NCBI RefSeq assembly: GCF_001438845.1 | Contig: NZ_JQCL01000098.1 | Location: 55,187 to 99,905 of the forward strand | From: Lactiplantibacillus xiangfangensis | Lineage (GTDB): Bacteria; Bacillota; Bacilli; Lactobacillales; Lactobacillaceae | DNA: 44,719 nt | Direction of reading: 5' to 3' | Part shown: one piece after another, positions 27,971 through 35,624 of the stretch | Position numbering within the stretch: position 1 is the first letter of the stretch | Layout of the letters: every line of letters starts with the position of its first letter | Made by a program: the position numbers and the translations under genes | Notes under the pieces: generated by a model | The model's database searches: none | What the model saw: the letters and a program-made list of their open reading frames with translations, nothing else | Told to the model about the DNA's origin: nothing

Positions 27971-28686
27971 TAATCGCTTAAGATTTTAAAGTGATAATTC
28001 CTTTGATAATAGGGAAATAACTGTGGTTTGAGAGGGGAAAGGAAATAGACCACTTTTGATTATTTAGAGGATCATTCAAATATTCATATATTAATTCTAA
28101 TAAACAATAGTTTTTGTTGAACGAGTTGGATGAGTTGTGCAGCAAAGGACGGGATATTGCAATTGAAATATTTCATTATAAGTAAATGTAATACAAGCAC
28201 CCCATATAATGCAGTTGTAGACAAAGACGCATTTTTGAAAAATGAATGGATGTATAAGCTTTATTCACGAATAGGGAGCTTTTATGTATTATTAATCTGT
28301 AATTGAATCTATATTATAAAGGTTATTGATAGCGGTTGAAATACTAAAACCAAGGTGTTAATTATACGATTCACATCAGTTTATTTATTTTTTGATAAAC
28401 TGTTCACCGTAGATTGTTAACAGCTACGAATGCCCATATATCAAAGAAAGCGCTGGTTATCTTTATTAGCCGTGGGTTGAACTGGAGAATGCATAATGTG
28501 TATTTTCACTTTGAATATGAATTTTTATTTCTTTCAAGAAAAATATTTTTATTGCTGTAATGATTGATGTAGTGCACCTTTATGCAGGGATGATTAGTAT
28601 GCCTTGGTAATAAACGGTTGCCATTAAAGATTAATGTGTTAAATTATAAATATAGAATAAGACGAACAAGGGGATGTACTTTAATT
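27971..28686. other. A+T-rich intergenic region upstream of the WxL cluster
   Basis: About 715 bp without a supported gene. It is strongly A+T-rich, has frequent stops in all frames and only short inverted repeats. A half-match to a cre site (GAAAGCGCTGG near 28448) was seen but is too poor to call. It probably holds the promoter of the WxL cluster, but no box pair stands out. Confidence 0.6.
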
Positions 28687-29475
28687 ATGAAAAAAATGGT
28701 AAGTAGTTTATTAATGACGAGTGCTTTATTATTAGGGGCCGCTGCGCCAGTTGTTGCGAATGCAGCAACTACCGATGCGGGTTCTACCACGACTGGGGTT
28801 ACGTTTACAGCTAATACGGATACGACGAAACCCGTTGATCCAAACAACCCCAATAAAACGTTAGATCCAGATCCAACTGACAATGGTAATAACGGTGGTA
28901 AGCCGGGCGCCGGGTTAGCTTTAGCCTACGCCCCAACTACAATTGACTTTGGGACCCATGAAATTGATTTGATCAATGCACATAAGTACAACGCTAACGG
29001 TGCTGTTGACGGCGCAACTGATGCTAAGGGTAAGGCCGGCAAGGACAGTGCAACTACTAACGGCACTTTCAAATTAGGTTCAGGTGGTGCTAATACTGGT
29101 TCAAAGGTTATTCTTGAAGTTGCTGACGGTCGTGGGACCAACGCTGGCTGGGATTTAAGTGTCACTAGTACGGGTGACATTGCTAGCTTGAAGGGTGCTA
29201 CGATTACCTTACCAGCTGGTAACGTGACCGCTTCTGGTAGTACTGATGGCAACGGTGCTGTTTCTAATGCCGTTACCATCGATGCTGGTAGTGGTAGCGC
29301 AACTGGAACAACTTCTAACGTTGTTTTAACCGCAGCTACGGGCAATGGTGCTGGGGTAACGGTCGATTCTTTAGACCCTGCCAACCTGACGTTAAACGTG
29401 GCTGCTAACACGGCTTCTGCTAAAACTTACGATGGGACTTTGAACTGGAGTTTAAGCGACACCCCATCTAACTAA
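28687..29475 (+). CDS. WxL-domain surface protein (CscB-like)
   Basis: ATG 28687 follows AAGGGG at 11 bases. The 262-residue secreted protein has a signal peptide (to about residue 28, ending ANA-ATT), a short Pro/Asn/Asp linker and a C-terminal WxL domain. Both WxL motifs are visible: GWDLSVT in the middle and LNWSLSD at the very end. WxL domains bind peptidoglycan non-covalently and assemble with DUF916 proteins. It opens a four-gene cluster of the cell-surface complex (csc) type known from L. plantarum, thought to serve carbohydrate or host-surface binding. Confidence 0.9.
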   Translation: MKKMVSSLLMTSALLLGAAAPVVANAATTDAGSTTTGVTFTANTDTTKPVDPNNPNKTLDPDPTDNGNNGGKPGAGLALAYAPTTIDFGTHEIDLINAHKYNANGAVDGATDAKGKAGKDSATTNGTFKLGSGGANTGSKVILEVADGRGTNAGWDLSVTSTGDIASLKGATITLPAGNVTASGSTDGNGAVSNAVTIDAGSGSATGTTSNVVLTAATGNGAGVTVDSLDPANLTLNVAANTASAKTYDGTLNWSLSDTPSN

Positions 29476-29499
29476 TTGTTAATAAGGTAAGATAACTAA

Positions 29500-29539
29500 A
29501 AAGAAGATGGCCATTGCCTTGGTAATGGGCATCTTCTTT
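29500..29539 (+). terminator. hairpin between the first WxL gene and the DUF916 gene
   Basis: AAAGAAGATG-CCATT pairs with AATGG-CATCTTCTTT. The T run is short, so it may act as a partial terminator that lets the first WxL protein be made in excess. Confidence 0.6.
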
Positions 29540-29568
29540 ACATATAATTGAAAGGAGTCGTTACTCAT

Positions 29569-30624
29569 ATGCAGAAATGGCTGAAGAAGTGGGTAGTGAC
29601 GGGGCTACTAGTTGGTTTGGACTTAAGTGTTAGCTTGCCAGCAAAAGCTGCGAAGCACTCGCAAGGGACGCAAGGTAACGTTGGGTTTAGCGTTGCAGCT
29701 AAGATCCCTAAGAACCAAATCAACAAGAAGAATTCCTTTTTTGATTTAAAAATGAAAAAAGGACAAACGGAAACGTTGCGAACGGTTATCTACAACAGCA
29801 CCAATAAAGATATGAAAGTCCAAACGCGCATCAATACGGCGTATACGAATACGAACGGTAGTATTGAATACGTCTCTCCGAAAACTAACTACGATTCATC
29901 ATTGAAGTATAAGATGAGTGATCTGACTAAAATCAATGGCACAAAAACCGTAACGGTTCCCGCTAATGGGTCTAAAACGGTGAGCGCCCAAGTGACGATG
30001 CCTAGCCAGCAAGTCAACGGGGTCATTTTAGGCGGCTGGTACTTTAAGCGGGTCGATGACAAGGTGACTGGCTCCGTCAAAGGTGCCATGAACATGAAGA
30101 GTCAGTATTCTTACGTCATTGGGATGAAGTACACTTCGGGGCAAACGCCCAAGCCTAACATGCTTTTAGGTAACGTTAAAGCTGGCATGATTAATTATCA
30201 CCGGGGGATTATTGCAGAATTGCGGAACCCAACGGCGGTAATGATTCCGAACTTAACGACTAAGACGACGATTACGAGTAAAAGTAATGATCAGGTTGTC
30301 AAAAAAGCGACGCGCAAAGGTGTTCAGATGGCCCCCAATACCCGTTATGATTACCCAATCTTGTTGGGCGATACGAAATTACAAGCGGGTCAATATCATT
30401 TACACATGACGGTTAAAAATAGTGACCATGAATGGACTTTTGATAAAGACTTTACAATTACGGCTGCGGCAGCACAAAAGTATAATAAGGCATCCGTAGA
30501 TAACAACGGGATTAGTATTTGGTGGCTCATTGGGTTGGGTGCACTTGGTATGTTAGTGATTGTTTTACTAGTCCTTTGGTTGATCTTCTTTATCAAAAAA
30601 CGACGACAAAAGAAGAACGCATAA
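29569..30624 (+). CDS. cscA: DUF916/DUF3324 membrane-anchored WxL-binding protein (CscA-like)
   Basis: ATG 29569 follows AAAGGAG. The 351-residue product has a signal peptide (to ~31), an N-terminal DUF916-type beta domain starting with GFSVAAKIPKNQ (~45-160), a second DUF3324-type domain (~165-305), one membrane helix (~320-342) and a Lys/Arg-rich tail. The family bridges the membrane to WxL proteins and peptidoglycan, so it is probably the anchor of this complex. Confidence 0.92.
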   Translation: MQKWLKKWVVTGLLVGLDLSVSLPAKAAKHSQGTQGNVGFSVAAKIPKNQINKKNSFFDLKMKKGQTETLRTVIYNSTNKDMKVQTRINTAYTNTNGSIEYVSPKTNYDSSLKYKMSDLTKINGTKTVTVPANGSKTVSAQVTMPSQQVNGVILGGWYFKRVDDKVTGSVKGAMNMKSQYSYVIGMKYTSGQTPKPNMLLGNVKAGMINYHRGIIAELRNPTAVMIPNLTTKTTITSKSNDQVVKKATRKGVQMAPNTRYDYPILLGDTKLQAGQYHLHMTVKNSDHEWTFDKDFTITAAAAQKYNKASVDNNGISIWWLIGLGALGMLVIVLLVLWLIFFIKKRRQKKNA

Positions 30625-30646
30625 ACTCAATTAAGGGGTGATCAAG

Positions 30647-31036
30647 TTGAAAACAATCAAGCTAGGACTTGCGGGAGCGTTAATGCTCGTGATTGTTTGG
30701 TTGATGCCAGTGGCGGCGTTTGCGCAATCTGAAACGCAGACGGGCGTTAGTTTCACACCAAGTACAAGCACGGTAGTTGATCCGGCGACGATTCAGGCTA
30801 ATCACCATATTCCAACTGGTCAGACAATTCGCCAAACGGACACAGGGAAAGCTAGCAACGCTGGTGCCATGGCCGGAACGTTGCAAAAGACGCTTCAATC
30901 AGGACGCTTACCACAAACGGCGGAAGCTTACGCGTGGTACGTGCGGATTTTGGGTGGCTTATTATTACTTAGCGCTGTTCTGGGCTATTTAGTCTGGCGT
31001 GATGTGCAGCTGACGGAACGGGGGACGACACGATGA
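30647..31036 (+). CDS. cscD: small LPXTG-type surface protein (CscD-like)
   Basis: TTG 30647 is preferred as the start, eight bases after AAGGGG; GTG 30638 overlaps that site. The 129-residue product has a signal peptide, a ~60-residue spacer, a sorting motif LPQTA, a hydrophobic helix and a charged end. LPQTA departs from LPxTG in the last position, so sortase recognition is uncertain, but this variation is usual in lactobacilli. Its stop overlaps the next start (ATGA). Confidence 0.85.
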   Translation: MKTIKLGLAGALMLVIVWLMPVAAFAQSETQTGVSFTPSTSTVVDPATIQANHHIPTGQTIRQTDTGKASNAGAMAGTLQKTLQSGRLPQTAEAYAWYVRILGGLLLLSAVLGYLVWRDVQLTERGTTR

Positions 31037-32553
31037 AAATGAAACAAGTTTGGCGTGTGTTGGCCGTCCTGTTGGTCATCTCTGGTACGGTGTTGTCAGC
31101 TAGTCCAGCAGTTCATGCGGCAACGTTGACGGACGTGACAGCGGGACTAGATTCAATGGGAAGTGGACGGATCCCTAATGAAGGTGGCGACAATGGGAAG
31201 CTATCTTTCTTACAGGAGACGCCAACAGTTACTGTTAAAGCAGACGGTTTAAAACCGTATGGATCTGAAGACCGGATTTCAACTAGTACGACGCAAATTA
31301 ATATTGCAGTTAGTGGAACGATGACGACAACAACCGGGGCAGGACAAAGTAAGCCTGGAAATATTACATCATATTACTTTGACTTGTTGGATAGGAATGG
31401 GAAATCGTTTACTACCCCGTCTCAAGTTATTAGTATCGGGTTTAAAAATACAAGTGTTTCGATTGATCAGAATATTACTTTTAATGTTGATTTGAAAGAT
31501 TTGAAAACTCGTGGTCCTATCTATATTGCTTACTGTTTTACAACCGATTTATCCTCGCACGTTAATAAGTATTACAGTAGTCGAGTGGGCAAAAAATTAC
31601 TTCCAACTATTACGACTTCGCCCGTCACCACTGGAACGACGGTTCTTAATGGAAAAGGGGATCATCCTGGTGATCTTATTAGTAACAATGTTACTGGGGA
31701 TACGACGACGGTTGGTGATGATGGCAAGTGGACGCTAAATTTAACTGGAGATGCACTTAAAAATTCAACGAGCTTAACAGTTGCTGAATCCAATGAATTC
31801 GGGGATTACGGGACGGCATTTTCGTTTGTAACAGTTGCTCCAGTTACGATTGCTGCGGACAAGACGACCCTTAACTTGTCGAGTGATGATGTGACTAAGC
31901 TAGAAGCCATGTCTGACAGTGACTTTGCCGACTGGGTGAAGTCTGAGGCCAATGTTACCGGGAAGAGTTCGTCTGGTAGTAGTGTCGACGTCAAAACGGA
32001 TACGGGCGATTTAGCAGCGGCGTTGAAGAAGGTCGCCGCTAACGACAGTATGCCGATTGATTTCTATGCAACTGACGGGACGAAGAAGTCAGCAATTAAG
32101 ACCATTACCTTAGTCAAACCGGGTACGGTCAAATTCGGCACGATTTCTAGTGGTATTGATTTTGGAAGCCACGGTGTCCCGACAGCAACCGCGTTATACG
32201 GCCCATCTTCACCTTGGAACGTTAACATCAATGACACCCGAACGGCGGGTTCCAAATGGTACCTGTACGCTTCAGCGACCGACTTAACTAGTGGCAGTCA
32301 TAAGCTGCCTGGTTATCTGACTTATCGTGACGCTAATGGTCAGGTGAGTGATTTGACCAAGAGCACCCTGATTGATTCTGGGGATCGTGGCACGTCGAAC
32401 ACGACGGAGGTCACTTCAAATTGGACGACTGATCCTAAGGACACTAGCAAAGCTGGGATCTTCTTAGATGTTGAACCGGGGGTTTTCGCCGATTCAAGCA
32501 TTAAATATTCTGGGGCAGTCAACTGGACATTAAGTGACGTGCCAACGCCTTAG
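31033..32553 (+). CDS. large WxL-domain surface protein (CscC-like)
   Basis: The ATG overlaps the stop of the previous gene by four bases, with GGGGGA upstream. The 506-residue product has a signal peptide (to ~30), an N-terminal beta-rich region (~60-190), Ig-like segments (~195-365) and a C-terminal WxL domain with KWYLYAS (~420) and a final VNWTLSDVP. Together with the two previous proteins it should form a wall-bound complex; the N-terminal region would be the part that binds the outside target (inference). Confidence 0.9.
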   Translation: MKMKQVWRVLAVLLVISGTVLSASPAVHAATLTDVTAGLDSMGSGRIPNEGGDNGKLSFLQETPTVTVKADGLKPYGSEDRISTSTTQINIAVSGTMTTTTGAGQSKPGNITSYYFDLLDRNGKSFTTPSQVISIGFKNTSVSIDQNITFNVDLKDLKTRGPIYIAYCFTTDLSSHVNKYYSSRVGKKLLPTITTSPVTTGTTVLNGKGDHPGDLISNNVTGDTTTVGDDGKWTLNLTGDALKNSTSLTVAESNEFGDYGTAFSFVTVAPVTIAADKTTLNLSSDDVTKLEAMSDSDFADWVKSEANVTGKSSSGSSVDVKTDTGDLAAALKKVAANDSMPIDFYATDGTKKSAIKTITLVKPGTVKFGTISSGIDFGSHGVPTATALYGPSSPWNVNINDTRTAGSKWYLYASATDLTSGSHKLPGYLTYRDANGQVSDLTKSTLIDSGDRGTSNTTEVTSNWTTDPKDTSKAGIFLDVEPGVFADSSIKYSGAVNWTLSDVPTP

Positions 32554-32599
32554 GGCACTATTTAAATTGGAAAATAATAAAATTCTGTGAAAATATTAG

Positions 32600-32628
32600 T
32601 TGACATGAGAATTCTTTAATGATTAACT
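32600..32628 (+). promoter_or_regulatory. probable promoter of the Phe-leader/ABC transporter operon
   Basis: A consensus TTGACA is at 32600-32605. The best -10 with a 17-bp spacer is TTAACT (32623-32628), a weak match. The leader ORF begins 36 bp later. Confidence 0.5.
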
Positions 32629-32663
32629 ATTAATTGTAAATTGAAATGAGAGGAAGACCGCCG

Positions 32664-32726
32664 ATGTCTTTAATTAGTAAACTTCATTTAAATAACCAAT
32701 TTGCCTTTAGCTTTTTCTTTAGATAG
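32664..32726 (+). CDS. phenylalanine-rich leader peptide of an attenuator
   Basis: This 20-codon ORF has AGGAAG seven bases before its ATG. The last eight residues are FAFSFFFR, five of them Phe, immediately before TAG at 32724. This resembles the pheA and pheST leader peptides of enterobacteria in design. The Phe codons (32700-32720) overlap the left arm of the first hairpin of the attenuator, so a ribosome stalled for charged tRNA-Phe would cover it. The peptide itself need have no function. Confidence 0.8.
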   Translation: MSLISKLHLNNQFAFSFFFR

Positions 32727-32903
32727 CGTTTGTATTCATACGATGGATACAAGCGCACGCACGACGCGTTTGTATCTATCGGGAGCTAAAGTTATTTCAC
32801 ATGACTTAAACACCAGATAGGTACGGGTACAATCTATCTGGAAAAATATCGGGCCCGATAAAACACCAGTTAGATTCTATCCTGAATCTAACTGGTGTTT
32901 TTT
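32705..32903 (+). promoter_or_regulatory. transcription attenuator with a chain of alternative hairpins
   Basis: One state: CTTTAGCT (32705) pairs with AGCTAAAG (32784) and GATAG (32722) with CTATC (32776). CCAGATAG (32813) then pairs with CTATCTGG (32834), and the terminator at 32862 forms. Other state: with the leader arm covered by a ribosome, TATCTATCGGG (32773-32783) can pair with CCAGATAGGTA (32813-32823). This frees ATCTATCTGG (32832-32841) to pair with CCAGTTAGAT (32866-32875), the left arm of the terminator. GCGTTTGTAT also occurs twice (32726 and 32766), and both copies can pair with ATACAAGCGC (32747). The outcome would be transcription of the importer when Phe is scarce. Confidence 0.75.
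32862..32903 (+). terminator. attenuator terminator
   Basis: The perfect 16-bp stem AACACCAGTTAGATTC / GAATCTAACTGGTGTT has a 6-base loop and a T-rich tail. It lies 67 bp before the lipoprotein gene and is the end point of the Phe attenuator. Confidence 0.92.
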
Positions 32904-32969
32904 GTTTTCTGAAAGCTTCAATCAAGACGTTGAATGAAGTTATTGATAACCAACTTTGAGGAGAGATTG

Positions 32970-33941
32970 ATGATGAAAAAGACGATGTTAGGAAGCTTAA
33001 TGATTGGGATGGCGTTGATTTTGACCGCTTGTAGCGGAAATGGTAGTGGTAATAATGACAAGACCGTTTCGGTTGGTATCTTGCAGGTCGTTCAACACGG
33101 TTCGCTGGATCAAGCCCGTAAAGGATTTAAAGCGGGGCTAGATCAAGAATTGAAGGCGCATGGTAGTCAAATTAAGGTCAAGTATCACGATTTAAATGCT
33201 CAGGGCGACCAAGCCAATCTGAACACGATGAGCCAACAGTTGGTTCAACAAAAAAATGACTTATTGGTCGGAATCGCAACTCCGGCTGCCCAGGCTTTGG
33301 CGAAGAAGACCACGACGACACCGACGCTGGTCACGGCGGTGACGGATTTGAAAGCCGCTGGGTTAGTGAAAAGTAATCAACAACCACGAACCAACGTCAG
33401 TGGGACCAGCGACTTAATGCCGGTGGGAAAGCAGTTAAAATTACTCAAGAGCATGGCTAAGGGTAACAAGCCGATTGGGATTATGTATAATTCTTCGGAA
33501 GAAAATTCCGTCTTACAAGTTAAAATCGCTAAGCAATACGCGCAACGGTATCAGATTAAACTCAAGGTGGTCAGCGCGACTAGTACTAACGATATTGCCA
33601 GCGTATTGGCCGGCCTAGAAGGCAAAATCTCCGGACTGTACTTACCAACGGATAATTTAATGGCCAGCGCGATGAAGACGATCGGTCAAAAGACTAAGGC
33701 TGCTAAACTGCCCGTTGTGACCGGATCAATCGAAATGGCACAAGACGGTGGAACTGCCACTTACGGTTTAAACTTCTACGAGTTAGGTGAACAGACTGGG
33801 AAGATGGCTTACGACGTCTTGATTAAGAAAAAGAAACCAGCAACTATGGCGGTCCAGACTGCGGATAAAGTACACCTATACGTTAATAAGGCCAATGCCA
33901 AATCAATTGGACTAACGGCTGACCAAATCAAACAACCTTAG
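32970..33941 (+). CDS. ABC importer substrate-binding lipoprotein, TrpX-like (ABC_sub_bind family)
   Basis: ATG 32970 (or 32973) follows GAGGAGAG; an upstream ATG at 32934 has no ribosome site. The 323-residue product has a lipoprotein signal with the lipobox LTAC (Cys ~23) and the ABC_sub_bind fold: SVGILQVVQHGSLDQARKGF, LLVGIATPAAQALA, GIMYNSSEENS and GLYLPTDNLM. Members include the TrpX proteins next to tryptophan T-boxes. Here the leader carries Phe codons, so Phe or a broader set of aromatic amino acids is the likely ligand (inference). Confidence 0.9.
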   Translation: MMKKTMLGSLMIGMALILTACSGNGSGNNDKTVSVGILQVVQHGSLDQARKGFKAGLDQELKAHGSQIKVKYHDLNAQGDQANLNTMSQQLVQQKNDLLVGIATPAAQALAKKTTTTPTLVTAVTDLKAAGLVKSNQQPRTNVSGTSDLMPVGKQLKLLKSMAKGNKPIGIMYNSSEENSVLQVKIAKQYAQRYQIKLKVVSATSTNDIASVLAGLEGKISGLYLPTDNLMASAMKTIGQKTKAAKLPVVTGSIEMAQDGGTATYGLNFYELGEQTGKMAYDVLIKKKKPATMAVQTADKVHLYVNKANAKSIGLTADQIKQP

Positions 33942-33958: not shown

Positions 33959-34960
33959 ATGTTAATCACAAGTATTGGACAGGGGTTACTTTGGGCCCCG
34001 CTCGTTATCGGGGTGTTCTTGACCTTTCGAATTTTAGATATTCCGGATTTAACCACTGAAGGCAGTTTTCCACTCGGCGCGGCCATTACGATTAGTACCA
34101 TGCTCAACGGCCAGTCCGCTTTAACGGCTAGTCTGTTGGGGTTCCTTGGCGGTTGTGCCGCGGGTTGGGTCACCGGGATGTTGGATACCAAGTTGAAGAT
34201 GCCGTCACTGCTGGCGGGAATCTTGACCATGACCGGGTTATATTCTATCAACATGCACATTATGGGCCGGGCAAACGTGCCATTACTAGATCAAAAAGTA
34301 CTGACGAATTACCTGCCTGCCGGTTGGTCACTGGATGTCCAGACCATCCTAATTGGGGGCATCATCACCACGCTGGTTGTTTTATCCCTCGTTTGGTTGT
34401 TCCAAACACGCTTAGGGTTGTCACTAATGGCAACGGGGAACAACGCCGCAATGAGTGCAGCCAACGGAATTTACACGGATCGAATGGTCATCATTGGCTA
34501 CATGCTATCAAACGGCTTGATTGCGTTATCCGGCGGCCTCATTGCGCAGAGTAATGGTTACGCGGACATCGGCATGGGGATTGGGACCATCGTCATTGGA
34601 CTCGCTTCCGTGTTAGTTGGGGAGATTTTCCTCCATGGACGTAAGATATGGATTCGGTTGACGGGCATGGTCGTCGGAGCGATCATTTATCGCTACTTGC
34701 TGACCCTTGCCATGGGGATGGGCTTTCCGGTTAACGATCTTAAAATCTTGTCAGCCGTCATCCTCGTCATTGTGATTTGCTTACCGATGTTACAGACTAA
34801 ATACCAAACCAAACGTCAATTAAACCGTTACCTCAAACAGATTGGAGTCGAGCAAAATGTCACAAACCGCCATCCTGAACGTACAACAACTACAGAAAGT
34901 CTTCTTCCCGGGAACCAGCAACGAACGGCACGTTTTGAAGAACGTGAACTTGACGATTGA
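33959..34960 (+). CDS. ABC importer permease, TrpY-like
   Basis: ATG 33959 follows GAAAGGGGTG. The 333-residue product has about eight or nine helices and the branched-chain/TrpY permease pattern (DIPDLTTEGSFPLGAAI near the start, GLIALSGGLIAQSNGYADIGMG in the middle). The last ~35 residues are hydrophilic and lie entirely within the start of the ATPase gene in another frame, an overlap of 104 bp. It is the channel of the importer. Confidence 0.9.
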   Translation: MLITSIGQGLLWAPLVIGVFLTFRILDIPDLTTEGSFPLGAAITISTMLNGQSALTASLLGFLGGCAAGWVTGMLDTKLKMPSLLAGILTMTGLYSINMHIMGRANVPLLDQKVLTNYLPAGWSLDVQTILIGGIITTLVVLSLVWLFQTRLGLSLMATGNNAAMSAANGIYTDRMVIIGYMLSNGLIALSGGLIAQSNGYADIGMGIGTIVIGLASVLVGEIFLHGRKIWIRLTGMVVGAIIYRYLLTLAMGMGFPVNDLKILSAVILVIVICLPMLQTKYQTKRQLNRYLKQIGVEQNVTNRHPERTTTTESLLPGNQQRTARFEERELDD

Positions 34961-35624
34961 ACCCGGGGACTTCGTATCCGTCATCGGCAATAATGGTGCG
35001 GGAAAATCAACGCTTTTAAACACGATTGCTGGAACTTTGACGCCAGATGCCGGTGAGTTAATGGTTGCCGGACACCGCGTCACAAAACGGTCGGTAGCCT
35101 ACCGTTCACGGTGGGTGTCACGGGTCTTTCAAGATCCTAAAATGGGAACGGCCGGTGAATTGAGTGTCGCTCAAAATTTAACGTTAGCTGAAAAACATAC
35201 GGGTAGTTTGAGTTTAAGACGTTACCGCCGTGCAGACCAGGCAAAGCGGTACGCCACATTATTGGCCAGCCTAAATATGGGCCTAGAACACCGTTTGACG
35301 ACGCAGGTGAAATACTTATCAGGGGGGCAACGGCAAGCGTTGTCGTTACTGATGGCGACTTTGAGTCAGCCACAATTGTTATTGCTGGATGAGCACACTG
35401 CCGCCTTAGACCCGCAGACGAGCAAGGAAGTCATGGCACTGACGGAAGCCATCGTGACAAAGCAACATTTGACCACGATGATGATTACCCATAAGCTAAG
35501 TGACGCGTTGACTTATGGTAACCGGTTGGTGATGGTCCAAGACGGCCAAATCAAACTGGATGTTCGCGGGGAAGCCAAGGCACGGTTACAAGCCAGTGAC
35601 TTAATGGGGTTATTTAGCGACTAA
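34857..35624 (+). CDS. ABC importer ATPase, TrpZ-like
   Basis: ATG 34857 follows GGAG at ten bases. The 255-residue product has Walker A GNNGAGKST, the Q-loop in RVFQDPKMG, signature LSGGQRQAL, Walker B LLLLDEHTAALD and a switch His in MITHKLSDAL. Its start lies inside the permease gene, suggesting translational coupling. It powers the importer formed with the two previous products. Confidence 0.92.
   Translation: MSQTAILNVQQLQKVFFPGTSNERHVLKNVNLTIEPGDFVSVIGNNGAGKSTLLNTIAGTLTPDAGELMVAGHRVTKRSVAYRSRWVSRVFQDPKMGTAGELSVAQNLTLAEKHTGSLSLRRYRRADQAKRYATLLASLNMGLEHRLTTQVKYLSGGQRQALSLLMATLSQPQLLLLDEHTAALDPQTSKEVMALTEAIVTKQHLTTMMITHKLSDALTYGNRLVMVQDGQIKLDVRGEAKARLQASDLMGLFSD

Follow-up and report, generated by a model that had tools for sequence, protein, structure and literature searches.

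The window, i.e., the whole stretch of 44,719 nucleotides of Lactiplantibacillus xiangfangensis DNA analysed here, very probably harbours a transcription attenuator of the leader-peptide type, with charged tRNA-Phe as its signal and an ABC importer for phenylalanine-like amino acids as its target. Directly observed for this attenuator are its anatomy, its conservation, the complementarity of its segments and, in folding models, a dependence on ribosome position. In the absence of expression data under starvation, the signal is best read as Phe in the window locus and as Phe or Phe/Tyr across the family. Beyond this single locus, an order-wide variant of attenuation is strongly indicated, hidden under the name of an sRNA and larger than the initial annotation of this DNA had claimed, its mechanism being untested by experiment.

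Leader ORF and its signals

The leader peptide, MSLISKLHLNNQFAFSFFFR, is encoded on the forward strand at 32664..32726, from an ATG at 32664 through 20 codons to a TAG at 32724-32726, with Phe codons at 32700, 32706, 32712, 32715 and 32718; its ribosome-binding site, GAGGAAG (32650..32656, forward strand), lies seven bases 5' of the ATG. Direct reading confirmed what the initial annotation had seen here, namely a 20-codon ORF with a good ribosome site and an end in FAFSFFFR. The leader thereby fulfils one criterion of the attenuator class, which asks for a short ORF with a ribosome site and regulatory codons clustered ahead of the stop. A probable promoter, TTGACA-N17-TTAACT (32600..32628, forward strand), with a TG one base 5' of the second hexamer, was read from the sequence and is absent from the output of a simple promoter scan; in relatives, TTGACA-N17/18-TTTACT stands at the same place, as judged by eye. 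Further upstream on the same strand, a cluster of secreted or surface-like proteins (28618-32553), presumably WxL-type by its appearance, ends 46 bases 5' of the promoter, and its 506-aa protein has no Pfam or NCBIfam family match. Elsewhere in the window, positions 528-585 match the Transposase-1 RNA of Rfam (RF03014, 48.8 bits).

RNA segments and alternative pairings

From the Phe codons onwards, the forward strand can be divided into a chain of segments. Segment 1' (32706..32726), comprising Phe codons and the stop, is predicted to pair with segment 3 in ribosome-free RNA. Segment 1 (32726..32739) has segment 2 as its partner, segment 2 (32743..32756) either 1 or 3, segment 3 (32766..32791) either 1', 2 or 4, and segment 4 (32813..32824) either 3 on the antitermination path or 5 on the termination path. 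Segment 5 (32831..32841) can pair with 4 or, as antiterminator, with the left terminator arm, i.e., segment 6 (32860..32877), and segment 7 (32884..32907) consists of the right terminator arm and a T-rich tail with the predicted 3' end of the short RNA. The mutually exclusive pairings put forward in the initial annotation could all be traced by direct reading, every arm being found at its given position: the arm TATCTATCGGG (32773-32783) is complementary to GATAG at 32722-32726 or to CCAGATAGGTA at 32813-32823, and the arm CTATCTGG (32834-32841) to 32813-32820 or to CCAGTTAGAT at 32866-32875, which is part of the left terminator arm. A further alternative, absent from that annotation, concerns 32743-32756: as GCGTTTGTAT is present twice, the partner of this stretch can be either 32726-32739 or 32766-32779.

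The terminator (32860-32901) has 18 pairs, a 6-nt loop and a T-rich tail, where shuffled sequences average 0.1 such sites; the terminator itself had been rightly recognised, though not its length, given as a perfect 16 bp. Over 271 nt, the leader folds with a z-score of -6.9 against 200 shuffles, none of which was equally stable. Mutually exclusive terminator and antiterminator, another criterion for membership, are present in the window leader. Between segments 5 and 6 lies a perfect 14-base palindrome, TATCGGGCCCGATA (32847-32860), whose GGGCCC is kept, by eye, in 52 of 57 Lactobacillaceae rows; it might act as a pause site, bind a protein or form a loop contact with ACGGGT, the loop of 4:5.

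Proposed mechanism

When Phe is plentiful, the ribosome would reach the stop codon and cover segment 1, upon which 2:3, 4:5 and the terminator 6:7 would form, releasing a short transcript of some 270 nt. Without a ribosome, 1' would pair with 3 and enclose 1:2, and once more 4:5 and 6:7 would form. When Phe is short, the ribosome would halt on the Phe codons, where 1' could no longer hold 3 and 1:2 would remain; segment 3 would then take 4, leaving 5 free for 6, no terminator would arise and the importer genes would be transcribed. Ribosome stalling, termination, the response to Phe and the substrate are all inferred, no starvation, term-seq or mutant data being at hand. Across the Lactobacillales, leaders of the same family, with Phe/Tyr codons, are located upstream of related importers and of genes for aromatic biosynthesis.

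A naive chain, alternating strictly from segment 1, predicts termination on stalling at segment 1 and was rejected by footprint folding: there, 1' is displaced once the ribosome occupies the Phe codons, 1:2 persists, and antitermination is restored.

Folding with the ribosome at successive codons

With a ribosome footprint masked at each codon and the window transcript folded up to segment 5, 3:4 formed when the A-site was on or near codons 12-18 (FAFSFF being codons 13-18), and did not form with the ribosome further upstream, at the last Phe codon, at the stop or in its absence. The last Phe codon (19) fell on the termination side under all three footprints tried, joined by codon 18 with a 12 nt footprint and by codons 17 and 18 with a 14 nt footprint.

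A co-transcriptional test, limited to transcripts up to segment 4, was applied to 55 Lactobacillaceae loci and 73 other distinct loci. In the latter, the median number of 3:4 pairs was 8.0-11.2 at codons -8 to -3, i.e., the aromatic codons, against 0.6 without a ribosome and 3.1 at the stop; five pairs were reached in 64 of the 73 loci, and these fell below half at the stop in 51/64 cases and without a ribosome in 54/64. In the Lactobacillaceae, the medians lay between 4.8 and 8.2 for all codons up to -3, with 5.9 in ribosome-free RNA and 1.7 at the stop, and position dependence is only weak in this transcript-to-4 model, upstream positions differing little. Five pairs were reached in 44 of these 55 loci, 40 of which fell below half at the stop; since only 18/44 did so without a ribosome, an off state in ribosome-free RNA cannot be taken as general.

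Folding at equilibrium with segment 5 present covered 135 of 139 loci (L107, L118, L121 and L165 were not parsed). In most non-Lactobacillaceae loci, 4:5 was dominant at every ribosome position, so that the switch there would have to be kinetic, i.e., a matter of timing; a dip at the aromatic codons appeared in part of the Lactobacillaceae only, and in others (e.g., L139, L141-L143) 4:5 was missing even without a ribosome. The criterion that the position of the ribosome on the regulatory codons sets the fold is met in folding models only, and more weakly at equilibrium and in the Lactobacillaceae. Antitermination through a ribosome stalled at Phe codons, as proposed in the initial annotation, was upheld in both mechanism and direction by the comparative and folding tests.

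Duplex energies and helix conservation

Duplex strength was evaluated in 50 Lactobacillaceae and 67 other distinct loci. The informative helices are 1':3, 3:4 and 5:6, the strength of 4:5 and 6:7 being given by construction because both were picked as stable hairpins. In Lactobacillaceae and other loci, respectively, mean energies were -16.8 and -18.5 kcal/mol for 1':3 (shuffles, -6.1 and -6.8), -12.0 and -14.2 kcal/mol for 3:4 (shuffles, -5.5 and -7.1) and -14.3 and -12.0 kcal/mol for 5:6 (shuffles, -3.6 and -5.0). The non-neighbour duplexes 3:5, 4:6, 3:6 and 1':4 stayed near shuffle level, 3:6 in Lactobacillaceae being slightly stronger than its shuffles (-6.9 vs -5.6). A locus's own 5:6 pair beat the mean of cross-group chimeras in 50/50 and 61/67 loci and its own 3:4 pair in 46/50 and 51/67, the 3:4 chimeras of the wide set nearly matching the own pairs (-13.3 vs -14.2).

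Among 52 distinct close rows, with structures drawn from the window's own sequence and rows L036, L056 and L157 dropped for an early T run, each of the seven helices was kept at 90-100% of cells, compared with 15-54% when the helix was slid by one to three bases as a control. Two-sided pair changes were few, 0-2 per helix and six for 6:7, with 0-3 in slid controls; the support is therefore one of conserved complementarity and not of covariation, the terminator 6:7 excepted. The expectation that the Phe codons and alternative pairings should be conserved and covary in relatives was accordingly borne out for conservation alone, covariation not exceeding the controls except in 6:7.

Conservation in close relatives

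The FAFSFFFR tail, followed by the stop, was present in 24/24 loci retrieved by the binding protein alone, 212 to 707 bases upstream of the start of the protein match. The refuting condition named in the initial annotation, relatives that keep the importer and lose the Phe codons or the alternative pairings, was decided in that annotation's favour by these 24 loci and by the helix conservation in the 52 rows. Among the carriers of the leader is Lactiplantibacillus plantarum EGD-AQ4 (L005). Within the genus, 8 of the 21 genomes encode an importer orthologue (at least 80% identity), and the leader is present in these same 8; the other 13 have only a paralogue of 35-38% identity, itself present in 21/21. 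A leader pattern search hit 57/397 Lactobacillaceae genomes in 6/40 genera, with no match for the reversed control; the pattern contained FAFSFFFR, which partly fixes the tail by the search. In all 57 loci the leader ORF is in frame, and in 56 the same binding protein lies downstream, the remaining one being at a contig end. Across these Lactobacillaceae loci, the N-terminal half of the peptide drifts and the C-terminal tail is constant. Levilactobacillus-type loci (L007-L013, L015-L017, L020 and L021) have roughly 100-450 extra bases between terminator and importer start, often rich in palindromes and, in a search that left out L016, without any Rfam match at the gathering cutoff.

An order-wide RNA family

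Under a relaxed threshold, the window RNA matches Rfam RF02863, 'Enterococcus sRNA 2410', over 1-196 of 196 positions (E 1.5e-6). The score of 46.6 bits is below the gathering cutoff of 61, and the membership criterion of that family is not met. At E 0.01, RF02863 matches occur in 163/295 Lactobacillales genomes and 52/74 genera, 71 of the 295 genomes having matches above the gathering cutoff, with 0/14 in control genomes. A phylum sample gave 3/398 at E 1e-4, all Lactobacillales and one of them the window's own genome, and a class sample 23/250 at E 0.01, five of them outside the Lactobacillales. In four of these five genomes, with one locus each, the leader is present by eye, ending in RFYFSYF and a stop in three and in YYFSYFR and a stop in one; downstream lies a DAHP synthase in three (one identified by family search, two by a near-identical start) and an importer protein in one.

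Closer inspection concerned 82 RF02863 loci, chosen by score and spread among the matches listed. Their leader tails are of the [FY][FY]FSYFR type with few variants, and downstream stand 61 binding proteins of the window importer's family, 18 aroE genes for shikimate dehydrogenase (6 by family search, 12 by likeness of start), one prephenate dehydratase, one DAHP synthase and one other amino acid binding protein. In one of the 82, L118, the leader before the DAHP synthase has no in-frame start codon and is apparently decayed.

Could the short RNA instead be a free-standing, trans-acting sRNA, as Rfam files the family, its position before importers being incidental or secondary? The full-length match at 46.6 bits speaks for it, and so does sRNA_2410 of Enterococcus faecium, for which the accessible part of the source reports 195 nt, two transcripts and detection by RNA-seq and Northern blot (PMC5593968); in Sinorhizobium, moreover, a terminated leader can act in trans, according to the portion available (PMC8546594). 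From name and length, it is inferred that this sRNA_2410 equals RF02863 or founded it, and the terms leader, attenuat and T-box are absent from the main text of that source (PMC5593968). Against an independent sRNA, importers of the window family or aromatic biosynthesis genes lie downstream in 81/82 loci, the exception being the other binding protein; the leader start, like the ribosome site and positions -6 and -7 counted back from the leader's end, lies outside the RNA model; and a trans role needs neither Phe/Tyr codons nor an antiterminator. We regard this reading as very unlikely compared with attenuation in cis. With respect to the initial statement that no described case of this design was known, no account of aromatic leader-peptide attenuation in Lactobacillales was recognised in the open-licence literature (most subscription journals were outside scope), but the RNA family itself spans the Lactobacillales and is already in Rfam as an sRNA.

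The downstream importer and its likely substrate

On the forward strand, the leader is followed by the substrate-binding lipoprotein of a TrpX-like aromatic amino acid ABC importer (32973..33941, with a start at 32970 or 32973), a permease (33959..34960; PF02653, 1.7e-18) and an ATPase (34857..35624; PF00005, 1e-29). The binding protein matches PF04392 (E 1.8e-68), meeting the gathering cutoff of 25.9 with 231.4 bits, and does not meet the equivalog cutoff of 390 for TrpX (NF041285) with its 310.7 bits. Related solved structures are 6HNI, which we take to be CD0873, 3LFT and 3LKV; Glu and Tyr at the mapped selectivity positions of 6HNI agree with that identity. In the accessible text of PMC6816091, the ligands are given as Tyr for CD0873, Trp for 3LFT and Phe for 3LKV, and two selectivity positions are described, with Glu+Tyr for tyrosine, Ala+Gln for tryptophan and Ala+Tyr for phenylalanine. 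The window protein has S252/F268, i.e., S/F instead of the A/Q of TrpX, and these pocket residues predict an importer that prefers Phe, and perhaps Tyr, to Trp.

More widely, 117/117 leader-bearing loci with an importer protein combine Ser or Ala at the first position with Tyr or Phe at the second (Phe/Tyr-like), the alignment having a gap near the first selectivity position in L094, L112 and L113. One genome (G098) has two importers with what amounts to a natural codon-swap pair, a Tyr-only leader, NTYYSYYR (L116), and a Phe/Tyr leader, TRYYFSYFR (L115). The pocket pairs of these two importers are SY and SF, and a preference for Tyr can thus not be told from one for Phe by these residues.

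A Trp-codon sister leader

In the window's own genome, the TrpX paralogue (L002) is preceded by a sister leader, near 204118-204141 of contig C53 upstream of the L002 match, with an invariant SWQSR containing one Trp codon; it was also found in 19/20 other paralogue loci checked in the genus (the sister-leader loci being L002, L189-L201, L203-L208 and L216-L220). The SWQSR stretch overlaps a GCCGGC-like arm, and the repeat layout and terminator are similar to those of the Phe leader. A pattern search for the sister leader hit 14/151 genomes against 3 for the reversed control. By eye, five of six loci outside the genus look real and L209 is false, two further matches lying outside this inspection. 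These five loci extend the sister leader to two more genera, where it again lies upstream of a protein of this kind. All five paralogues aligned under such a leader have the pocket pair Val + Gln, with the Trp-type Gln. For two sister leaders (L002, L189), simple folding with a ribosome did not bring out a clear switch. A T-box search to E 0.01 in four paralogue loci found none on the leader strand; T-box matches on the opposite strand of these loci probably serve a divergent gene.

Identity of the leader codons

In the 82 RF02863 leaders, the residues were Y72 F9 S1 at position -6, F78 Y3 L1 at -5, Y78 F4 at -3 and F79 Y2 L1 at -2, aromatic positions exchanging almost only between Phe and Tyr. 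The last codons are partly given by the search itself (SYFR) because they are inside the RNA model; positions -6 and -7 are aromatic in 81/82 and 65/82 leaders. Across all 139 leaders, aromatics make up 2.6% of residues upstream of the last eight, and a Shine-Dalgarno-like core stands 5' of the chosen start in 123/139. Conservation of the codons is confounded with RNA pairing, since the same Phe codons form one arm of a helix.

TnaC is a known case of ribosome arrest with Trp as the ligand. By analogy, the tail could stall the ribosome through contacts with the exit tunnel, perhaps with free Phe/Tyr as ligand, and not through a lack of charged tRNA, as might be thought from a FSYFR or FSFFFR tail that is nearly invariant, including a Ser and an Arg meaningless in plain attenuation. 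The constancy of Ser and Arg-stop is, however, explained by RNA, since AGC and AGATAG are pairing arms; in the folding models, a ribosome that has reached the stop codon favours termination, and the aromatic positions tolerate Phe/Tyr exchange, all of which makes an arrest peptide highly improbable. A general slow-down of translation (antibiotic, cold or stringent response) as the signal is hardly tenable either: most aromatic codons do overlap the left arm of 1':3, so that RNA structure alone could have fixed them, but positions -6 and -7 in the wide set, aromatic as counted above, lie largely outside that arm, most changes either exchange Phe and Tyr or are synonymous, the genes that follow are aromatic ones, and the Trp-codon sister leader precedes a paralogue with a Trp-type pocket.

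Search for known regulators

No T-box (RF00230) was found in the window at gathering score, nor in 32500-33000 up to E 5, and a T-box as regulator of the window importer was rejected for want of any covariance model match upstream. None was found at gathering score in 14 other leader loci, a search that would miss T-boxes below the cutoff. The genome has 32 T-box matches elsewhere, of which 13 are over the cutoff, yet both importers of the family are preceded by leader ORFs, with Phe codons in one case and Trp codons in the other. Rfam holds an enterobacterial phe leader family; a leader of that type was rejected, no such family being among the Rfam matches up to E 5.

Implications and comparison with known systems

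Taken as a whole, the leaders probably define a Lactobacillales-wide aromatic regulon run by ribosome-stalling leaders, not by T-boxes, with codons retuned along with the importer pocket (Phe, Phe/Tyr, Tyr, and Trp in the sister), with members also before aroE, prephenate dehydratase and DAHP synthase, and with sRNA 2410 as the terminated product. Work on Bacillus subtilis has led to the view that Gram-positive ribosomes lag behind RNA polymerase. If the reading is true, close coupling of ribosome and RNA polymerase would be implied in these Gram-positive bacteria, offering a ready test of transcription-translation coupling; an orphan Rfam sRNA would gain a mechanism and a regulon, and Phe/Tyr would be named as likely substrates of many importers related to tryptophan transporters.

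Proteobacterial leader-peptide attenuators include trp, his, pheA and pheST. The window leader shares with them a short ORF with regulatory codons and a choice between antiterminator and terminator made by ribosome position, and with the his attenuator a chain of several hairpins. It differs in phylum, in its seven segments and in a stop codon located inside the first helix and, unlike the proteobacterial systems, its ribosome-free RNA would also terminate, through 1':3. RF02863 resembles the window leader by the full-length match and by the 195 nt Northern-blot RNA, as reported in the part of the source available (PMC5593968), which fits a terminated leader; it differs in being filed as an sRNA of unknown role, with the window copy under the family cutoff.

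The view that Phe-rich leaders are mainly proteobacterial needs adjusting, inasmuch as two earlier studies, of 2010 and 2022, predicted leader-peptide attenuation of histidine genes in Firmicutes, according to the accessible portions of both sources (PMC2965389; PMC9413887). There, as here, predicted attenuation replaces T-boxes or a repressor; unlike here, it concerns histidine genes, in Bacillus, Peptostreptococcaceae and Erysipelotrichaceae (PMC2965389; PMC9413887), T-boxes being reported for Lactobacillales in the available text of the later source (PMC9413887). In Streptococcus suis, finally, a Trp T-box has been shown for trpXYZ, on the evidence of the part of the article accessible (PMC9382623): as proposed for the window, an importer of the same family is subject to transcription attenuation by amino acid shortage, but the T-box senses the tRNA directly, and the amino acid is Trp, not Phe/Tyr.
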